Source: Amycolatopsis deserti (lineage in GTDB: Bacteria > Actinomycetota > Actinomycetes > Mycobacteriales > Pseudonocardiaceae). From it: a stretch of DNA of 64,000 bases. The notes below the pieces were generated by a model. It saw nothing but the letters and a program-made list of their open reading frames with translations. It was not told the origin of the DNA and did no database searches. This document shows positions 17,356 to 24,078 of the stretch, in pieces. The translations under genes and the position numbers were made by a program. The DNA is taken from positions 478,088 through 542,087 of the forward strand of contig NZ_BNAU01000005.1 of NCBI RefSeq assembly GCF_014653945.1. Reading direction: 5' to 3'. The first letter of the stretch is position 1. The number at the start of each line of letters is the position of its first letter.

Positions 17356-18306
17356 ATGCACACCGTCGCCGTGCTGGCGCTGGACGGCGTGGTCCCGTTC
17401 GACCTGGCCACCCCGATCGAGGCCTTCACCCGCACCCGGCTGCCGGACGGCCGCCCGGCCTACTGGGTGCGGGTTTGCGCCCCGAGCCCGACCGTCGACG
17501 CGGGCACGTTCACGCTGCAGGCCGAGTGGGGCCTCGAGGCGCTCGCCGACGCCGACACGATCATCCTGCCCGGCTGCGTGGACCCGGCGGTGCCGGTGCC
17601 GGAGGACGTGCTGGACGCGCTGCGCAAGGCGGCCGCCGACGGCACGCGCATCGCCTCGATCTGCGCCGGCGCGTTCGTCCTGGCCGCGACCGGGCTGCTC
17701 GACGGGCTTCGCGCGACCACGCACTGGGTCGCCGCGGACCAGCTCGCGCGGCGGCACCCGGAGGTCGAGGTGGACCCGGACGTGCTGTACGTGGACAACG
17801 GCCAGTTCCTCACCTCGGCGGGCGCGGCGGCCGGGCTGGACCTGTGCCTGCACCTCATCCGGCGCGACCACGGCTCCGCGGTGGCCGCCGACGCCGCGCG
17901 GCTGTCGGTGATGCCGCTGGAACGGGAGGGCGGCCAGGCGCAGTTCATCGTGCACGACCAGCCGCCGGCGCCGCGGGGTTCGCTGCTGGAGCCGGTGCTG
18001 CGGTGGATGACCGACCACCTGGACCGGGACCTGACGCTGGCGGACGTGGCGGCGCGCGCGGGAATGAGCACCCGGTCGCTGAACCGCCACTTCCGCGAGC
18101 AGACCGGGACGACGCCGCTGCAGTGGCTGCACCGCGAACGGATCCGGCAGGCGCAGTACCTGCTGGAGACGACGCGGCACCCGGTGGACCGCATCGCGGG
18201 CCAGGTGGGGTTCGGCTCCCCGACCGCGTTCCGGGATCGCTTCCGGCGGGTGGTCGGCACGAGCCCGAACGCCTACCGGGCGGCGTTCCAGAAGCGGGAC
18301 TCCTGA
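17356..18306 (+). CDS. GlxA-type AraC family regulator with DJ-1/PfpI domain
   Basis: A 316-residue regulator. Residues 1-190 form a DJ-1/PfpI-like sensor with Cys103 in the elbow ICAGAF. Residues about 215-310 carry two AraC helix-turn-helices, with VAARAGMSTRSLNRHFREQT and RIAGQVGFGSPTAFRDRFRR. GlxA-like proteins respond to small metabolites and are usually single activators or repressors. A TACGGT hexamer (17343-17348) is 7 nt before the ATG and there is no ribosome site, suggesting a leaderless mRNA. No obvious target gene is adjacent. Confidence 0.92.
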   Translation: MHTVAVLALDGVVPFDLATPIEAFTRTRLPDGRPAYWVRVCAPSPTVDAGTFTLQAEWGLEALADADTIILPGCVDPAVPVPEDVLDALRKAAADGTRIASICAGAFVLAATGLLDGLRATTHWVAADQLARRHPEVEVDPDVLYVDNGQFLTSAGAAAGLDLCLHLIRRDHGSAVAADAARLSVMPLEREGGQAQFIVHDQPPAPRGSLLEPVLRWMTDHLDRDLTLADVAARAGMSTRSLNRHFREQTGTTPLQWLHRERIRQAQYLLETTRHPVDRIAGQVGFGSPTAFRDRFRRVVGTSPNAYRAAFQKRDS

Positions 18307-18310
18307 CGAT

Positions 18311-18328
18311 CGAGACGGACCCGTCCCG
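18311..18328. promoter_or_regulatory. TetR operator, site 1 (autoregulation)
   Basis: CGAGACGGACCCGTCCCG, arms CGAGACG/CGTCCCG around a 4-nt centre. It matches the operator at 21635-21652 at 14 of 18 positions. It lies 25-42 nt upstream of the TetR ATG and just before the TACTGT -10 hexamer at 18340-18345. Confidence 0.6.
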
Positions 18329-18352
18329 TCCATTCCTGGTACTGTCCCGGAC

Positions 18353-18961
18353 ATGACCCGGACCCGTCGCGCGCCGAGTGGTGCCGCCGTGCTGCGTGTC
18401 GAACTCACCGACGCCATCGTCGAGGTCGTGATCGACGAGCTGGCCGAGAAGGGCTACGCCCGCACCTCCATGGACGGCGTCGCCAAGCGGGCGGAGGTCG
18501 GGAAGAGCTCGCTGTACCGCCGGTGGTCCTCGAAGCAGGACATGGTGGTCGACGCGGTGTCCCAGCTCAGCGTCCCGCTGGTCGACATCCCGGACAGCGG
18601 CTCCCTGCGCGGTGACGTCGAGCGCGCGTTCGAGGTGGTCGCCGAGTGGCTCAGCGACGAGCGCCTGGGCCGGATCCTGCCCGACCTCACCGCCGAGGCC
18701 AAGCGCAACCCGGCCCTGGCCAAGGCGCTGTCCGAGCACCTGGAGAACCCCCGCCGCGCCAAGGCGGAACCGGTGCTCGACCGCGCGATCGCCCGGGGCG
18801 AGCTGCCGCGAGACGTCGACCGCGAGCTCGCGCTCGACATGTTCGCCGCCCCGATCTACTGGCGCCACACCGTCCGCCGCAGCGAGATCACGCCCGAGTT
18901 CCTGGCGCAGCTCGTCGACTCGACGCTGGCGTTCCTCGGCGCCCGGCCGCCGAAGGAGTAG
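18353..18961 (+). CDS. TetR family transcriptional regulator
   Basis: A 202-residue regulator. The N-terminal helix-turn-helix is YARTSMDGVAKRAEV..SSLYRRWSSKQDMV at about 37-68, and the C-terminal part is the TetR_C-like ligand domain with an RRAKAEPVLDRAIARGELP segment. TACTGT (18340-18345) is 7 nt before the ATG without a ribosome site, so translation is likely leaderless. An operator-like palindrome precedes the gene, and two related copies lie between the monooxygenase and permease operons. I infer that it represses all three. Its stop codon abuts the convergent flavin reductase stop. Confidence 0.92.
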   Translation: MTRTRRAPSGAAVLRVELTDAIVEVVIDELAEKGYARTSMDGVAKRAEVGKSSLYRRWSSKQDMVVDAVSQLSVPLVDIPDSGSLRGDVERAFEVVAEWLSDERLGRILPDLTAEAKRNPALAKALSEHLENPRRAKAEPVLDRAIARGELPRDVDRELALDMFAAPIYWRHTVRRSEITPEFLAQLVDSTLAFLGARPPKE

Positions 18962-19429
18962 TCACCGCAGCACCCGGAACGTGCTGCGGTGGAACACCAC
19001 CGGTTCCGCACCGGGGAAATCCGTCAGCGCCGTGATGCCGAGCAGCGCGATGACGTGGTCGCCGGCGTCGATCTCGCCGGTCAGGCGGCATTCCATCTGC
19101 AGCGCGCTGTCCTCGACCAGCACCGCACTCCCGCGCGCCACCCACGGCACCCCGGCGAACCGGTCGCCCTCCGGCATCGCCAGGCTGCGGCAGATCCCGC
19201 CCTGCCCGGCCGACAACACGCTGACCCCCAGCGAGGGCGCCTCCCGCAGCCGCCGCCAGGTCCGCGACTCCTTCCGCACGCACACCGACACCAGCGGCGG
19301 GTCCAGGGACACGGCCGTGAACGTGCTCACCGCCATGCCCACCGGTTCGCCGCCGACCAGCGCGCACACCGCCGCCACACCGCTCGGGAACTGGCCGAAC
19401 GCCGCCCGCAACGTGGTCCCGTCGATCAT
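18962..19429 (-). CDS. Flavin reductase (HsaB/HpaC-like)
   Basis: A 155-residue flavin reductase-like domain: FGQFPSGVAAVCAL at 10-23, the FMN-binding pattern GMAVSTFTAVSLDPPLVSVCV, and a final GDHVIALLGI followed by PVVFHRSTFRVL. It supplies reduced flavin to a separate oxygenase. The oxygenase partner is the acyl-CoA-dehydrogenase-like gene at the head of the same operon. ATG 19429 overlaps the hydrolase stop by 4 nt. Confidence 0.88.
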   Translation of the reverse strand: MIDGTTLRAAFGQFPSGVAAVCALVGGEPVGMAVSTFTAVSLDPPLVSVCVRKESRTWRRLREAPSLGVSVLSAGQGGICRSLAMPEGDRFAGVPWVARGSAVLVEDSALQMECRLTGEIDAGDHVIALLGITALTDFPGAEPVVFHRSTFRVLR

Positions 19430-20364
19430 CTCGCCACTCCTTCCCGCTCGGACGACCAGGTGTCGCGGAGGAACTCCACCGCCGGGTGGACCACCTCCGG
19501 GCTGCTGAACACCGCGGTCGCGTGGTCGGCACCGGGAATGACCTCCAAAGTGGACTCTCCGCCCGCGGAGAGCACCGCCTCGTGCAGCCGCCGGCTCTGC
19601 CCCAGCCCGCACCGGCGGTCGGCGTCGCCGTGGCTGATGCGGAACGGTGGCACCCGCGACGCCGCCGCCACCGCGCGCGACACCGCCGCCCCGGCCACCA
19701 CGTCTCGCCGCGACGCCAGCGGGAACCCGAAGAACTGCGACCCGACGTCCACCATGTTCCGCAGACCTTCGCGCGTGGGCTCGAACGCGTCGTCGACGAT
19801 CCGCGAGAAATCCGTGACCGGGTAGTGCAGCACCACCGCGGACAGCCGCGCGGACACCGCGGGGTGGTCGCCGACCGGTCGTCCGATCCGGTGGGTGAGC
19901 GCGGCCAGCGCCATCAGGTACCCACCCGCGGAGCTGCCCCATCCGGCGATCCGCGTGGCGTCCAGCCCGTACCGGTGCGCGTGCACGCGAACCCACCGGA
20001 TCGCGGCGAGCACGTCCTCCACCGGTTCCGGGTAGCGCGCCTCGCCGGCGAGCCGGTAGTCCAGCGACGCCACCGCGATCGCGTGCCGCGGCAGCGCCGC
20101 CCACGGGCCCATTTCCTTGACGCCGCCGAGGAAACTGCCGCCGTGCGCGTAGACCACGACCGGCACCGGACCGGTCGCGTCGAGCGGGACGTGCAGGTCC
20201 AGCGTCAGCGGGCGCCAGCCGACCGGGGTCGCATACTTGACGTTGAGGTACGACTCGGCCCCGTCGAGCACGCGCACCGGCCGGACCGTCCACAAGCGAG
20301 GTTCGGCCATGTGGTGCGAAGCCGGTCGTGTGAACGGGACTTCGGAAGGATGTGGGAGCGTCAT
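19426..20364 (-). CDS. Alpha/beta hydrolase, BD-FAE/HSL-like esterase
   Basis: A 312-residue hydrolase. VVYAHGGSFLGG near 70-81 is the HGG oxyanion loop, WGSSAGGYLMALA contains the nucleophile GxSxG, and SHGDADRRC and PGADHATAV supply the acid and His. The group cleaves carboxyl esters, lactones or kynurenine formamide. It sits between a flavin monooxygenase and its reductase with 4-nt overlaps on both sides (ATGA at each junction). This suggests that it opens an ester or lactone made by the oxygenase, an inference from context. Confidence 0.85.
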   Translation of the reverse strand: MTLPHPSEVPFTRPASHHMAEPRLWTVRPVRVLDGAESYLNVKYATPVGWRPLTLDLHVPLDATGPVPVVVYAHGGSFLGGVKEMGPWAALPRHAIAVASLDYRLAGEARYPEPVEDVLAAIRWVRVHAHRYGLDATRIAGWGSSAGGYLMALAALTHRIGRPVGDHPAVSARLSAVVLHYPVTDFSRIVDDAFEPTREGLRNMVDVGSQFFGFPLASRRDVVAGAAVSRAVAAASRVPPFRISHGDADRRCGLGQSRRLHEAVLSAGGESTLEVIPGADHATAVFSSPEVVHPAVEFLRDTWSSEREGVAR

Positions 20365-21599
20365 GCCTTGCGCACCCCCGGCAGGTAGTCGCCGGCGTCG
20401 GGGATCTGGCCGGTCAGCTCGGCGGCGCCGACGAACGCGTTCTTGGCGTCGATGCTGTCGTGGCTGGCGAACGTGCGCGCGTTGCGCCAGAACCGGTCCA
20501 GACGGTACTTGTTGGCGGTGCTGCGGGCGCCGGTGAGGTCGTGCACGCGGGCGGTCACGTCCAGCGCCGCCCTGGTGCAGGCGACCTTGACCTTGAAGAA
20601 CTCGGTCATCAGCGCACGCAGGTCGGTGGTCGCGTCGGAGTTCGCCAGCTTCCGGCAGGTGTCCAGCAGGTAGGCGCGGCTCGCGGCGAGGGCGGCGGCC
20701 ATCTCACCGATCTGGCGGTGCATCAGCGGATCCTCCATCGCCGAGCCGAACATCGGCATGCTCGGCCGGTTCAGCCCGCGCAGGTACTCCAGCATCGCCG
20801 CGTACGCGCCCTCCCCGATTCCCTGCAGCAGCAAGGCGTGCCCGGGCAGGACGAGGTCGACGAACACGACCTCCGACTCGGGCGCCGCGTAGTGCCAGCC
20901 GTCGGGCACGAACACCTCGGCGTAGGTGATGGTCTGGCTGATCGTGCCGCGCTGGCCCATGTTGTCCCAGTCTCCGTGCGCCTCCACACCCGGCGCGTCC
21001 AGGCGGATCAGCGCGTGGTGCCGGGAGGTGGCGCCGTCCGGCTCGGTGATGCGGAAGCTGACGTTGGCCAGGTCGCGACCCCCGCCGCCGCTGTTGGTGT
21101 TGAACGTCTTCACGCCGTTGACGACCACGCCGCCGTCGACCCGGCGCCCGGTGACCGGTCCGGTGCCGCCGGTTTCCGCGTTGGAGGCGACGATGCGCCG
21201 CCCCTGGAAGATCAGCTCGTCGGCGAGCGCCTGTTTGGTGGACGCGGGCAGCGGCGCGGACATCACCTCGCGGGCCTGCAGGGCGGTGGTGGCCCAGCAC
21301 TGGCCGGTCGAACCGTCGCCCGCGGTCACCTCCAGCGCCGCCTCGATCACCCGGTCCCAGCCGGCGAAGGTGCCGCCGGTCCAGAGGCCGCCGAACTCGA
21401 CGGGGACGTTCGCGCGCTGCAGGCCGGCCTCGCCGAGCAGGCGCATCGCCTCGGTGGGATCGACGCCGAGCGCGTCCACCTCCACGCCCAGCTCGGCGAT
21501 GCGCGGTCGCAGCGCCTTGGCGCGGGCGACGATTTCGTCGTAACTCGCCGGCGCCGACGGCCAGGCGGGGATTTCGCGGTTTTGCGTGGTCACGGACAT
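20361..21599 (-). CDS. Acyl-CoA dehydrogenase-like flavin-dependent monooxygenase (HsaA/DszC group)
   Basis: A 412-residue protein with the acyl-CoA dehydrogenase fold: AEVGVEVDALG-type N-terminal helices, GLWTGGTFAGWDRVIEAALE, GDGSTGQCW, a mid-domain NGVKTFNTNSGGG and C-terminal YRLDRFWRNARTFASHD. The last motif is typical of group D flavin monooxygenases such as HsaA or DszC, not of true dehydrogenases. Reduced flavin would come from the reductase two genes on. ATG 21599 has GGAAGGA upstream; a longer frame to 21749 would add 50 residues across the operator and is rejected. Confidence 0.85.
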   Translation of the reverse strand: MSVTTQNREIPAWPSAPASYDEIVARAKALRPRIAELGVEVDALGVDPTEAMRLLGEAGLQRANVPVEFGGLWTGGTFAGWDRVIEAALEVTAGDGSTGQCWATTALQAREVMSAPLPASTKQALADELIFQGRRIVASNAETGGTGPVTGRRVDGGVVVNGVKTFNTNSGGGGRDLANVSFRITEPDGATSRHHALIRLDAPGVEAHGDWDNMGQRGTISQTITYAEVFVPDGWHYAAPESEVVFVDLVLPGHALLLQGIGEGAYAAMLEYLRGLNRPSMPMFGSAMEDPLMHRQIGEMAAALAASRAYLLDTCRKLANSDATTDLRALMTEFFKVKVACTRAALDVTARVHDLTGARSTANKYRLDRFWRNARTFASHDSIDAKNAFVGAAELTGQIPDAGDYLPGVRKA

Positions 21600-21634
21600 G
21601 AACGTCGTCCTTCCGGGAGATTTCGATGAATGGA

Positions 21635-21652
21635 CGAGACGGTATCGTCTCG
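21635..21652. promoter_or_regulatory. TetR operator, site 2
   Basis: CGAGACGGTATCGTCTCG: 7-bp perfect arms around GTAT, 36-53 nt upstream of the monooxygenase start and inside the divergent intergenic region. Same consensus as the sites at 18311 and 21727. Confidence 0.65.
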
Positions 21653-21726
21653 ACCACGGTAACTCGTCCGGAGCGGACCAACAAGAGTCTGGACAGGCCG
21701 GGAACGCCCGGCGTACGCTGCTCGGA

Positions 21727-21744
21727 CGCGACGATACCGTATCG
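21727..21744. promoter_or_regulatory. TetR operator, site 3
   Basis: CGCGACGATACCGTATCG, with the core palindrome CGATAC-C-GTATCG. Read on the opposite strand, site 2 matches it at 16 of 18 positions. It is placed 70-90 nt upstream of the permease gene, so the divergent promoters would both be covered. Confidence 0.6.
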
Positions 21745-21814: not shown

Positions 21815-23215
21815 ATGAACCCAGACGGAAACCACCACCGGTTGCGCGCCAACGCGGTGGGCATCTTCGACATGATCCTCATGGTGATCGCGGTGACCGC
21901 ACCGCTGACCGCGGTCGCCTCGAACCTCTCGCTGAGCCTCGCGTTCGGCACCGGCACCGGCACGGTCGGCGTGCTCGTCCTGGTGCTGGTGATCCTGCTG
22001 GTGTTCTCCGCCGGCTACGTGGCCCTGAGCCGCCAGGTGGTCAACGCGGGCGCCTACTTCGCCTACATCGGCTTCGGCCTCGGGCGGCGGATGGGCGGGG
22101 CGTCGGCGCTCGTGGCGACGCTGGCCTACAACCTCGCGGCGGCCGGGATGTCCGTGGCCGTCGGGTACTTCGGGCACCTCGGGCTGTCGGCCTACCTCGG
22201 GGTGGACGTGCCGTGGTGGGTGATCGCGCTGGTGGCGGTCGGGGCCACCTGGGTGGTCGGCTACTTCGGCGTGACGATCGCGGGGAAGGTCAACGTCTTC
22301 GTCGCGGTCACCGAGTTCGCGATGCTGCTGGCGTTCGCGATCGCCGTGCTGGTGCGGCGGCCCGGCGGGTTCTCGGTCGAGGTGTTCGCGCCGGGCACCG
22401 TGCTCGGCGGCAACTTCGGCCTCGCCGTGGTGTTCTGCATCCTGTCCTTCGCCGGGTACGAGGCGGCCGCGATCTACGGCGAAGAGGCGCGGTCGGCGCG
22501 GCGGAACGTCGGCCGGGCAACGTATTCGGCGTTGATCGTGCTGGCGGTGACGTTCGTGTTCGTCATGTGGGCGATCGTGGCGGCGTTCCCGGACGCGGTC
22601 GCGGTGGCGCAGGCCGATCCCGGCGCGCTGCTGGTCGCGGCGATCACCGCGCACCTCGGCGGGTGGGCCGGGCCGGTGCTGAGCCTGATGATCACGTTCA
22701 GCTTCTTCGCGGCGGCGCTGTCCTTCCACGCGATCGCGTCGCGGTACATGTTCTCCCTGGCGCGCGACGGTTTCCTGCCGCGACGGCTGAGCCTGGTGCA
22801 CCCCCGGCGGCAGACGCCGGTATCGGCGGGGACCGTGCAGCTGGTGGTGTGCGTGCTGGTGGTCGTGCCGTTCGCGGTGGCGGGCGCCGATCCGATCGTG
22901 ACCTTCTTCCCCGCGGTCTCCGGGATCACCGCACTGGCGATCATCTACCTGATGGCCGCCTGTTCGGCGAGCATCGTCACCGCCGCCGTGCGCGGGCGGA
23001 TCACCGGTTCGGTGTGGACGGTGCGCGTGGCGCCGTCGATCGCGGGCGTGGCGCTGGTGAGCTGCGGGGTGGTCATCGTCGCGCATTACACGGAGATCAC
23101 CGGCAGCGATTCGCCCGTCATCAGCGCACTGCCGCTGTCCCTCGTCGTCGCCGCGGTCTACGGCTGGATCGCGGCGCGAACCCGGACCGTGACCGAGCAA
23201 CCGGCCCTGGCCTGA
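21815..23215 (+). CDS. APC-superfamily amino acid/polyamine permease
   Basis: A 466-residue transporter with 12 predicted helices. LRANAVGIFDMILMVIAVTA at the N-terminus and the later ISFAGYEAAAIYGEEARSARRN-type segment (written with small differences here) are typical of APC family amino acid carriers. ATG 21815 has AGGAG at 21805-21809. It heads an operon with a cupin and a GNAT gene (gaps of 11 and 9 nt). It likely imports the substrate of the divergent monooxygenase operon, since both are framed by the same TetR-like operators. Substrate unknown. Confidence 0.88.
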   Translation: MNPDGNHHRLRANAVGIFDMILMVIAVTAPLTAVASNLSLSLAFGTGTGTVGVLVLVLVILLVFSAGYVALSRQVVNAGAYFAYIGFGLGRRMGGASALVATLAYNLAAAGMSVAVGYFGHLGLSAYLGVDVPWWVIALVAVGATWVVGYFGVTIAGKVNVFVAVTEFAMLLAFAIAVLVRRPGGFSVEVFAPGTVLGGNFGLAVVFCILSFAGYEAAAIYGEEARSARRNVGRATYSALIVLAVTFVFVMWAIVAAFPDAVAVAQADPGALLVAAITAHLGGWAGPVLSLMITFSFFAAALSFHAIASRYMFSLARDGFLPRRLSLVHPRRQTPVSAGTVQLVVCVLVVVPFAVAGADPIVTFFPAVSGITALAIIYLMAACSASIVTAAVRGRITGSVWTVRVAPSIAGVALVSCGVVIVAHYTEITGSDSPVISALPLSLVVAAVYGWIAARTRTVTEQPALA

Positions 23216-23634: not shown

Positions 23635-24078
23635 GTGCGAGTCGCCCTGCGCCCCGCGACGGAGGGCGACCGCGAGTTCTGCTTCCGGCTGCACGAAGCC
23701 GCGATGGGCGCCTACGTCGCGGCCGTGTGGGGCTGGGACGAGCGGGAGCAGCGCGCCTACCACGACCGCGGTTTCGCGCCCGGCCGCTGGCAGGTCGTGA
23801 CGGTCGACGGGACCGACGCGGGCATGCTCAGCGTCGAGCAGCGCGACGGCTCGCTCTACCTGGGACGGATCGAACTGCTGCCCGAGTTCCAGGGGCGCGG
23901 CGTCGGGAGCGGGCTGATCACGGACCTGATCGCCGACGCGGACCGGCGCGGGTTCGCGCTGGAACTGGACGTGCTGGCGGTCAACACGCGGGCGTACAAG
24001 CTGTACCGGCGGCTGGGTTTCCGCGAGGTGCGCCGCCGTGATCGCAAGATCGCGATGAGGTACCGCGGAACGCCTTGA
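23635..24078 (+). CDS. GNAT family N-acetyltransferase
   Basis: A 147-residue GNAT protein. The acetyl-CoA loop ELLPEFQGRGVGSGLI at about 79-94 (Q/RxxGxG/A) and the C-terminal LAVNTRAYKLYRRLGFREV are canonical. It starts at GTG 23635, 9 nt after the cupin stop, with GGGAGG upstream. It probably acetylates an amine or a product of the same pathway; no substrate can be named. Confidence 0.88.
   Translation: MRVALRPATEGDREFCFRLHEAAMGAYVAAVWGWDEREQRAYHDRGFAPGRWQVVTVDGTDAGMLSVEQRDGSLYLGRIELLPEFQGRGVGSGLITDLIADADRRGFALELDVLAVNTRAYKLYRRLGFREVRRRDRKIAMRYRGTP

Follow-up and report, generated by a model that had tools for sequence, protein, structure and literature searches.

A Putative TetR Regulon with a Conserved 18-bp Operator Linking Monooxygenase and Permease Operons in Amycolatopsis deserti

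Gene Cluster and Putative Operators

The window, that is, the whole 64,000-nucleotide stretch of DNA analysed here, comes from Amycolatopsis deserti (contig NZ_BNAU01000005.1, positions 478,088 to 542,087). It carries the gene of a TetR-family repressor, a monooxygenase operon, a permease operon, and three 18-bp palindromes referred to as the putative operators O1, O2, and O3. Judged from the sequence, one TetR very probably controls its own gene and both operons through these sites. The features of the cluster are as follows.

18311..18328, plus strand: putative operator O1 of tetR, CGAGACGGACCCGTCCCG; the start codon of tetR lies 24 bp further on
18353..18961, plus strand: TetR-family repressor, 202 amino acids; Pfam TetR_N 46.9 bits, TetR_C_11 112.8 bits
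18962..19429, minus strand: flavin reductase; Pfam Flavin_Reduct 113.8 bits; its stop codon abuts the stop of tetR
19426..20364, minus strand: alpha/beta hydrolase, esterase/amidase-like; Pfam BD-FAE 119.7 bits, Abhydrolase_3 84.8 bits
20361..21599, minus strand: predicted group D flavin-dependent monooxygenase, acyl-CoA-dehydrogenase type; its gene heads the catabolic operon
21635..21652, minus strand: putative operator O2 of the monooxygenase operon, CGAGACGATACCGTCTCG as read on the minus strand; start codon 35 bp on
21727..21744, plus strand: putative operator O3 of the permease operon, CGCGACGATACCGTATCG; start codon 70 bp on
21815..23215, plus strand: APC-family amino-acid/amine permease; Pfam AA_permease_2 90.2 bits
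23227..23625, plus strand: small cupin-like protein containing an HQHHHDH stretch; its alignment spans 7 loci from 4 genera
23635..24078, plus strand: GNAT acetyltransferase; Pfam Acetyltransf_1 51.6 bits

The tetR gene converges, stop to stop, with the minus-strand monooxygenase–hydrolase–reductase operon, in which the hydrolase gene shares four bases with each of its neighbours. The permease, cupin-like, and GNAT genes run opposite to this operon. The TetR exceeded both Pfam cut-offs (24 bits for TetR_N and 32 bits for TetR_C_11), and it was the only match of its own genome at E 1e-40, the next best paralogue being 32% identical. An earlier, sequence-only reading of this DNA had named 18-mers at 18311, 21635, and 21727, and all three were found there.

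Occurrence of the Motif in the Window and the Genome

The common consensus proposed in that reading, CGNGACGNNNNCGTNTCG, was borne out by counting. It had four exact matches in the window, which fell on three places: 21635 matched on both strands, 18311 on the minus strand only, and 21727 on the plus strand. In 100 dinucleotide shuffles, the mean count was 0.19 and the largest 2. The plus-strand right arm of O1 reads CGTCCCG, and O1 fits the consensus on the minus strand only. Across the genome (7.74 Mb), CGNGACGNNNNCGTNTCG had 12 matches at 10 places, three of which were O1, O2, and O3, while the reversed pattern had 2. A second pattern, CGNGACGNNNCCGTHYCG, written post hoc on the basis of O1 to O3 and of operators belonging to related TetRs, gave 8 matches at 7 places versus 3 for the backward control. 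These places were O1, O2, O3, one site on contig C2, and three sites inside open reading frames as predicted by a crude gene finder. The sequence-only reading had held that many unrelated copies in the genome would speak against it; such copies were searched for and were not found for the exact forms. The three sites are genuine, and their exact matches exceed chance.

The arm symmetry was 7/9 for O1, 8/9 for O2, and 6/9 for O3, and 36 of the 63,983 18-mers in the window had an arm symmetry of at least 8/9. Because many 18-mers were equally symmetric, palindromicity alone is unremarkable, and it is the sequence common to the three sites that is remarkable.

Conservation in Close Amycolatopsis Relatives

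The monooxygenase was searched in 61 genomes, its own included. The same cluster was present at 94–97% identity in four other genomes: G005, G002 (A. tucumanensis), G013, and G017. Upstream of tetR, a further regulator-like gene occupied the same place in all four:

17356..18306, directly upstream of tetR: araC/FtrA-like gene with a DJ-1/PfpI domain, 337.5 bits against the FtrA cut-off of 425

In each of the five loci, the own one among them, about 24 bp separated O1 from the tetR gene after it, whereas the gap between the araC-like gene and O1 ranged from a few to nearly 700 bp. By hand count, 12 of the 18 positions of O1 were unchanged in the alignment. Since the distance to tetR was kept and that to the araC-like gene was not, O1 belongs to tetR rather than to araC. 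A terminator or an araC element at O1 was ruled out on the same grounds.

The spacing between O2 and O3 was 92 bp in four of the five loci. O2 was kept in four loci, with three base changes in G005, and was deleted in G013; O3 was identical in four loci and altered at its left end in G013. The deletion in G013 took the beginning of the monooxygenase along with O2, and only partial matches were obtained in that genome for the permease, cupin, and GNAT genes. The whole regulon of G013 looks damaged, in the cluster as well as in a distant SnoaL gene, yet tetR and O1 remain. For GNAT, no match was found at the A. tucumanensis locus, and together with the partial match in G013 this marks it as an accessory gene. 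Of the permease–cupin–GNAT operon that had been proposed as a TetR target, the permease–cupin part is supported, and GNAT is only an accessory.

Palindromes Upstream of Related tetR Genes

At a threshold of E 1e-40, 136 of the 390 genomes of the family had a match to the TetR alignment. Seventy of the listed matches were examined: the top 30, among them the own one, and 40 sampled along the rest of the list. Two of the seventy could not be placed by the helix pattern. The 250 bp upstream of each tetR was then searched with a palindrome pattern derived from O2 and O3 alone. The palindrome was found within three mismatches at 61 of the 68 placed loci and within two at 51, so that the TetR-family trait of a palindrome at the regulator's own promoter, seen here as O1, was seen across the subgroup on sequence. 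Leaving out the own locus and the four most closely related ones gave 56 of 63. In comparison, 300 permuted palindromes, from which those resembling the motif at five or more of the nine half-site positions had been left out, gave means of 0.70 loci at three mismatches and 0.09 at two, the largest counts being 21 and 11, respectively. A coding-window control gave 0/68 within three mismatches. Moreover, a stricter helix pattern placed 48 TetR loci, 43 of them with the palindrome. A SnoaL- or NmrA-like gene adjoined tetR in nine of the 14 loci viewed (by eye, from first residues).

Reshuffled Clusters in Distant Relatives

In more distant relatives, the palindrome accompanied differently arranged genes. 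In A. sacchari (TetR 58% identical), it lay between tetR and an MFS–cupin–monooxygenase–hydrolase–reductase operon, and a second copy lay before SnoaL–NmrA. In Nonomuraea lactucae (TetR 51% identical), it was located before cupin–permease and also between tetR and the monooxygenase operon, and in A. saalfeldensis it was located between tetR and the monooxygenase. The named monooxygenase loci were compared for the best 20 of 80 (L069–L088), a close TetR being defined by tblastn at E 1e-8. The motif stood beside tetR or the operon in 5/5 loci with a close TetR, and beside the operon in 0/15 loci where no close TetR was found in the stretches searched, two of which had a two-mismatch match elsewhere in the locus. 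Together with the footprinting across aligned loci and the 61 placed loci, these results support the earlier claim that one TetR may control its own gene, the oxygenase–hydrolase–reductase operon, and the permease–cupin operon.

For the clusters of Streptomyces iranensis and Thermocatellispora, a palindrome search near the module found none of this class, which fits the lack of a close TetR found there. In S. iranensis, another TetR_N protein is encoded inside the module, between the hydrolase and the reductase (L073:10196-10885), with the palindrome absent; it is possible that this protein is a replacement of the regulator. A GntR regulator was observed at the Nonomuraea, S. iranensis, and Thermocatellispora modules (L071, L073, and L078); it was assigned by Pfam in S. 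iranensis and by visual inspection in Nonomuraea and Thermocatellispora.

The comparison also bears on which protein acts at O2 and O3. Another regulator, either a second TetR or the araC-like protein, might bind these two sites and leave O1 alone to this TetR, in keeping with the O1 core that differs from O2/O3 and with the araC/FtrA-like gene conserved beside tetR. However, exact matches to the O2/O3 pattern preceded 11 of the 68 related tetR genes, the nearest paralogue in the genome was only 32% identical, and tblastn found no araC homologue in the stretches searched at the Nonomuraea and A. sacchari loci, where the motif was present. A separate regulator for O2 and O3 is therefore considered unlikely, and a single TetR acting at all three sites is preferred.

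SnoaL–NmrA Operon and Regulon Decay

The C2 site of the own genome (G000:C2:681345-681362; L002:1501-1518) reads CGAGACGGCATCGTCTCG. It was followed by an NmrA fragment (L204:9846-9988) that matched residues 210–254, the last part of NmrA, at 62%, and SnoaL had no match in the own genome at E 1e-5. In G005, G017, and G002, a SnoaL–NmrA operon was found with the palindrome in front, the G002 copy having one mismatch. In G013, the palindrome was followed by a SnoaL gene matching in two frames and an NmrA gene matching in two pieces. The sequence comparison thus indicates that the C2 site belongs to a lost SnoaL–NmrA operon that is present in close relatives, and an operator left before a lost operon would be a trace of regulon decay.

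The SnoaL–NmrA operon was megabases away from tetR on the same contig in G017 and G013 and on another contig in G005 and G002; in the own genome, the C2 operator and the NmrA fragment were also on a different contig from tetR. Since the operon lies so far from the regulator, the network is independent of present linkage. The three sites of the sequence-only reading are upheld, but the regulon appears wider than three sites, with a predicted further operator before SnoaL–NmrA in four relatives. In the own genome and in G005, a glutamine-synthetase-like gene (L204:8420-9733) runs divergently from the C2 operator. The stretches of G017, G013, and G002 (the last only 3.4 kb) showed no such gene next to the SnoaL operon. 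The gene was set aside as a further target because the site belongs to the lost SnoaL–NmrA operon and the gene adjoined it in only two of the five stretches.

Candidate Promoters and Regulatory Model

Candidate promoter elements were located by eye.

18340..18345, plus strand: candidate -10 element of tetR, TACTGT, seen in all five aligned loci
21656..21684, minus strand: candidate monooxygenase promoter, TTGTTG, 17 bp, TACCGT, weak
21690..21719, plus strand: candidate permease promoter, TGGACA, 18 bp, TACGCT

O3 starts 7 bases past the candidate permease promoter, at the expected transcription start, and O2 starts 3 bases past the candidate monooxygenase promoter. O1 would possibly cover the -35 region of tetR, if these promoter positions are correct.

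Classical TetR repression with ligand release is the most likely mode of action suggested by the sequence. A dimer of the TetR_C_11-subgroup repressor would bind the 18-bp CGnGACGrTAyCGTnTCG at three promoters (O1, O2, and O3), and an operator on or just after the promoter would block transcription. The repressor would be released by a small molecule, probably the substrate of the pathway or something formed from it, so that uptake and breakdown would be induced together while the repressor would replenish itself. The sites, their conservation and placement, the gene families, and the reshuffling in relatives are seen in the sequence itself, whereas binding, repression, the inducer, and the promoter positions are inferred.

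The same sites could instead be true TetR operators at which the protein activates, or represses just one of the divergent operons. Activation is known for some TetR proteins, according to one report (PMC3511530), and the promoter positions in the window were judged by eye. Nevertheless, operators over or after the possible promoters fit repression better, and each divergent promoter has its own site with a conserved spacing, which makes such a mode very unlikely here.

Several results weigh against the regulon as a whole. At two mismatches, the motif was not enriched in the window (28 matches versus 48 expected), and the O2/O3 form had 57 matches in the genome (strands counted apart) versus 32 for the backward control. 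O1 was one of these 57 and was thus ordinary at looser settings, so that the evidence for O1 comes from comparison. It was also a weaker match to the O2/O3 form, with two to three mismatches in all five close loci, and the O1 of G017 did not fit CGNGACGNNNCCGTHYCG at all. These five loci share a recent history, and their agreement counts little outside the turned-over regions. Across the subgroup, seven of the 68 TetR loci had no match at three or fewer mismatches, six having four-mismatch sites and one none. Furthermore, the contrast between 5/5 and 0/15 monooxygenase loci is weaker than the numbers suggest because the loci are related and some flanks are short. Strict consensus promoter scans found none of the three promoters, where 0.0 were expected too. 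In addition, the araC-like gene beside tetR could also take part.

The missing enrichment at two mismatches, and the fact that palindromes of such length are common in this G+C-rich DNA, would agree with sites that arose by chance or are structural (terminator-like) and serve no regulator. This can hardly be the case: the exact forms were far above chance, kept between genera, and tied to TetR, and a terminator scan flagged 21565-21577 alone, leaving O1, O2, and O3 unmarked. A chance origin was rejected for the exact matches, although the two-mismatch forms were not enriched. A TetR regulon with operators at three promoters of the window thus stays the preferred reading.

Predicted Chemistry of the Encoded Pathway

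The enzymes are predicted to form a two-component group D flavin monooxygenase module, on the basis of the DszC-like relatives and the Flavin_Reduct gene in the operon. The monooxygenase gave PDB sequence matches to DszC structures (E 6e-30 to 9e-30) and 63.8 bits with Acyl-CoA_dh_2. The flavin reductase is likely its partner, given the position of the gene in the same operon. Among the PDB relatives listed for the hydrolase (best 60 of 143), most were esterases and lipases. NCBIfam scores led to the rejection of a DszC identity (118.2 bits versus a cut-off of 850), an SfnB identity (138.3 versus 430.9), and an HsaA/HsaB identity (HsaA 48.9 versus 450, HsaB 113.4 versus 230). As the scores were below the cut-offs, the substrate is not to be read from DszC, SfnB, or HsaA identity.

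The family memberships suggest the import of an amino-acid- or amine-like compound, followed by group D oxygenation and then hydrolysis. In Nonomuraea, S. iranensis, and Thermocatellispora, permease homologues (48–49% identical) lay close to the monooxygenase. A gamma-glutamyltranspeptidase-like gene was present in the same three clusters (recognised by eye in Nonomuraea and by Pfam in the other two), a class IV aminotransferase gene near the S. iranensis module, and a Glu/Leu/Phe/Val dehydrogenase gene near the Thermocatellispora module. Taken with the permease, these genes hint at an amino-acid- or amine-like substrate. In L071, Pfam additionally identified a Rid-family gene, and a second cupin-like gene was recognised by eye.

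The gene called a cupin in the sequence-only reading was present and was conserved in the seven aligned loci, but the family assignment is less firm: the protein had no Pfam or NCBIfam match at E 0.001, and its structure model was of low confidence (mean predicted local distance difference test, pLDDT, 62). With its conserved HHHDH stretch in all seven loci, it possibly represents an undescribed family.

Comparison with Known Systems and Significance

The EdcR regulon of Caenibius tardaugens resembles the window in having a TetR_C_11 regulator within a degradation cluster (PMC8700777). According to that report, two operon promoters carry a palindrome at the -10 box, which it overlies, and the edcR and edcT promoters have less conserved forms of it; the palindrome was likewise predicted, but the authors constructed a deletion mutant and a reporter system (PMC8700777). 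The EdcR system differs in its operator, TnnCnnTACnAnTnGTAnnGnnA, its estradiol pathway, and its organism (PMC8700777).

In Streptomyces, according to Ahn et al. (2012), TetR proteins control metabolic enzymes, and their operators are short palindromes, a single regulator often having more than one (PMC3511530). SCO7222 recognises TGGAACGnCGTTCCA (PMC3511530), which shares GGAACG with some distant members of the present subgroup. The rule given in the same text assigns as targets the divergent neighbours within 200 bp of tetR (PMC3511530). The window departs from this rule, for tetR is convergent with the nearest target operon, and the target promoters are more than 2.6 kb from the tetR stop.

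The group D two-component systems DszC, SfnB, XiaF, and HsaA/HsaB are like the window in having an acyl-CoA-dehydrogenase-type oxygenase and a flavin reductase gene in the same operon. To our knowledge, none of these systems includes a hydrolase, a cupin-like protein, or an amino-acid permease as a partner. The XiaF homologues identified in one report act in xenobiotic catabolism, with the exception of a few secondary-metabolite oxygenases (PMC5481743). A search of a PMC collection for the operator, by exact string and by terms, found no report, although strings printed with breaks and papers outside the collection would be missed.

The exchange of genes under the operator was seen in the transporter (APC permease or MFS), in SnoaL–NmrA (beside tetR or far from it), and in the monooxygenase module (present or absent). 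We give even chances to a broader proposal, in which a TetR subgroup with at least one Nonomuraea member retains a nearly constant 18-bp operator as the genes it controls are replaced by others, in which distant members are damaged together upon loss of the pathway, as in G013, and in which the subgroup governs an undescribed uptake–oxygenation–hydrolysis pathway for an amino-acid- or amine-like compound.

As predicted from sequence, this is a well-supported regulon of a type already known, and the subgroup-wide operator prediction should be useful. The TetR subgroup, with members in 136 of the 390 genomes, gains an operator prediction that lends itself to testing with synthetic DNA, and regulators can be given targets that would escape the usual neighbour rule. 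Moreover, the monooxygenase module, the transporter, and the SnoaL–NmrA pair become one likely functional unit, which would narrow the search for the substrate.

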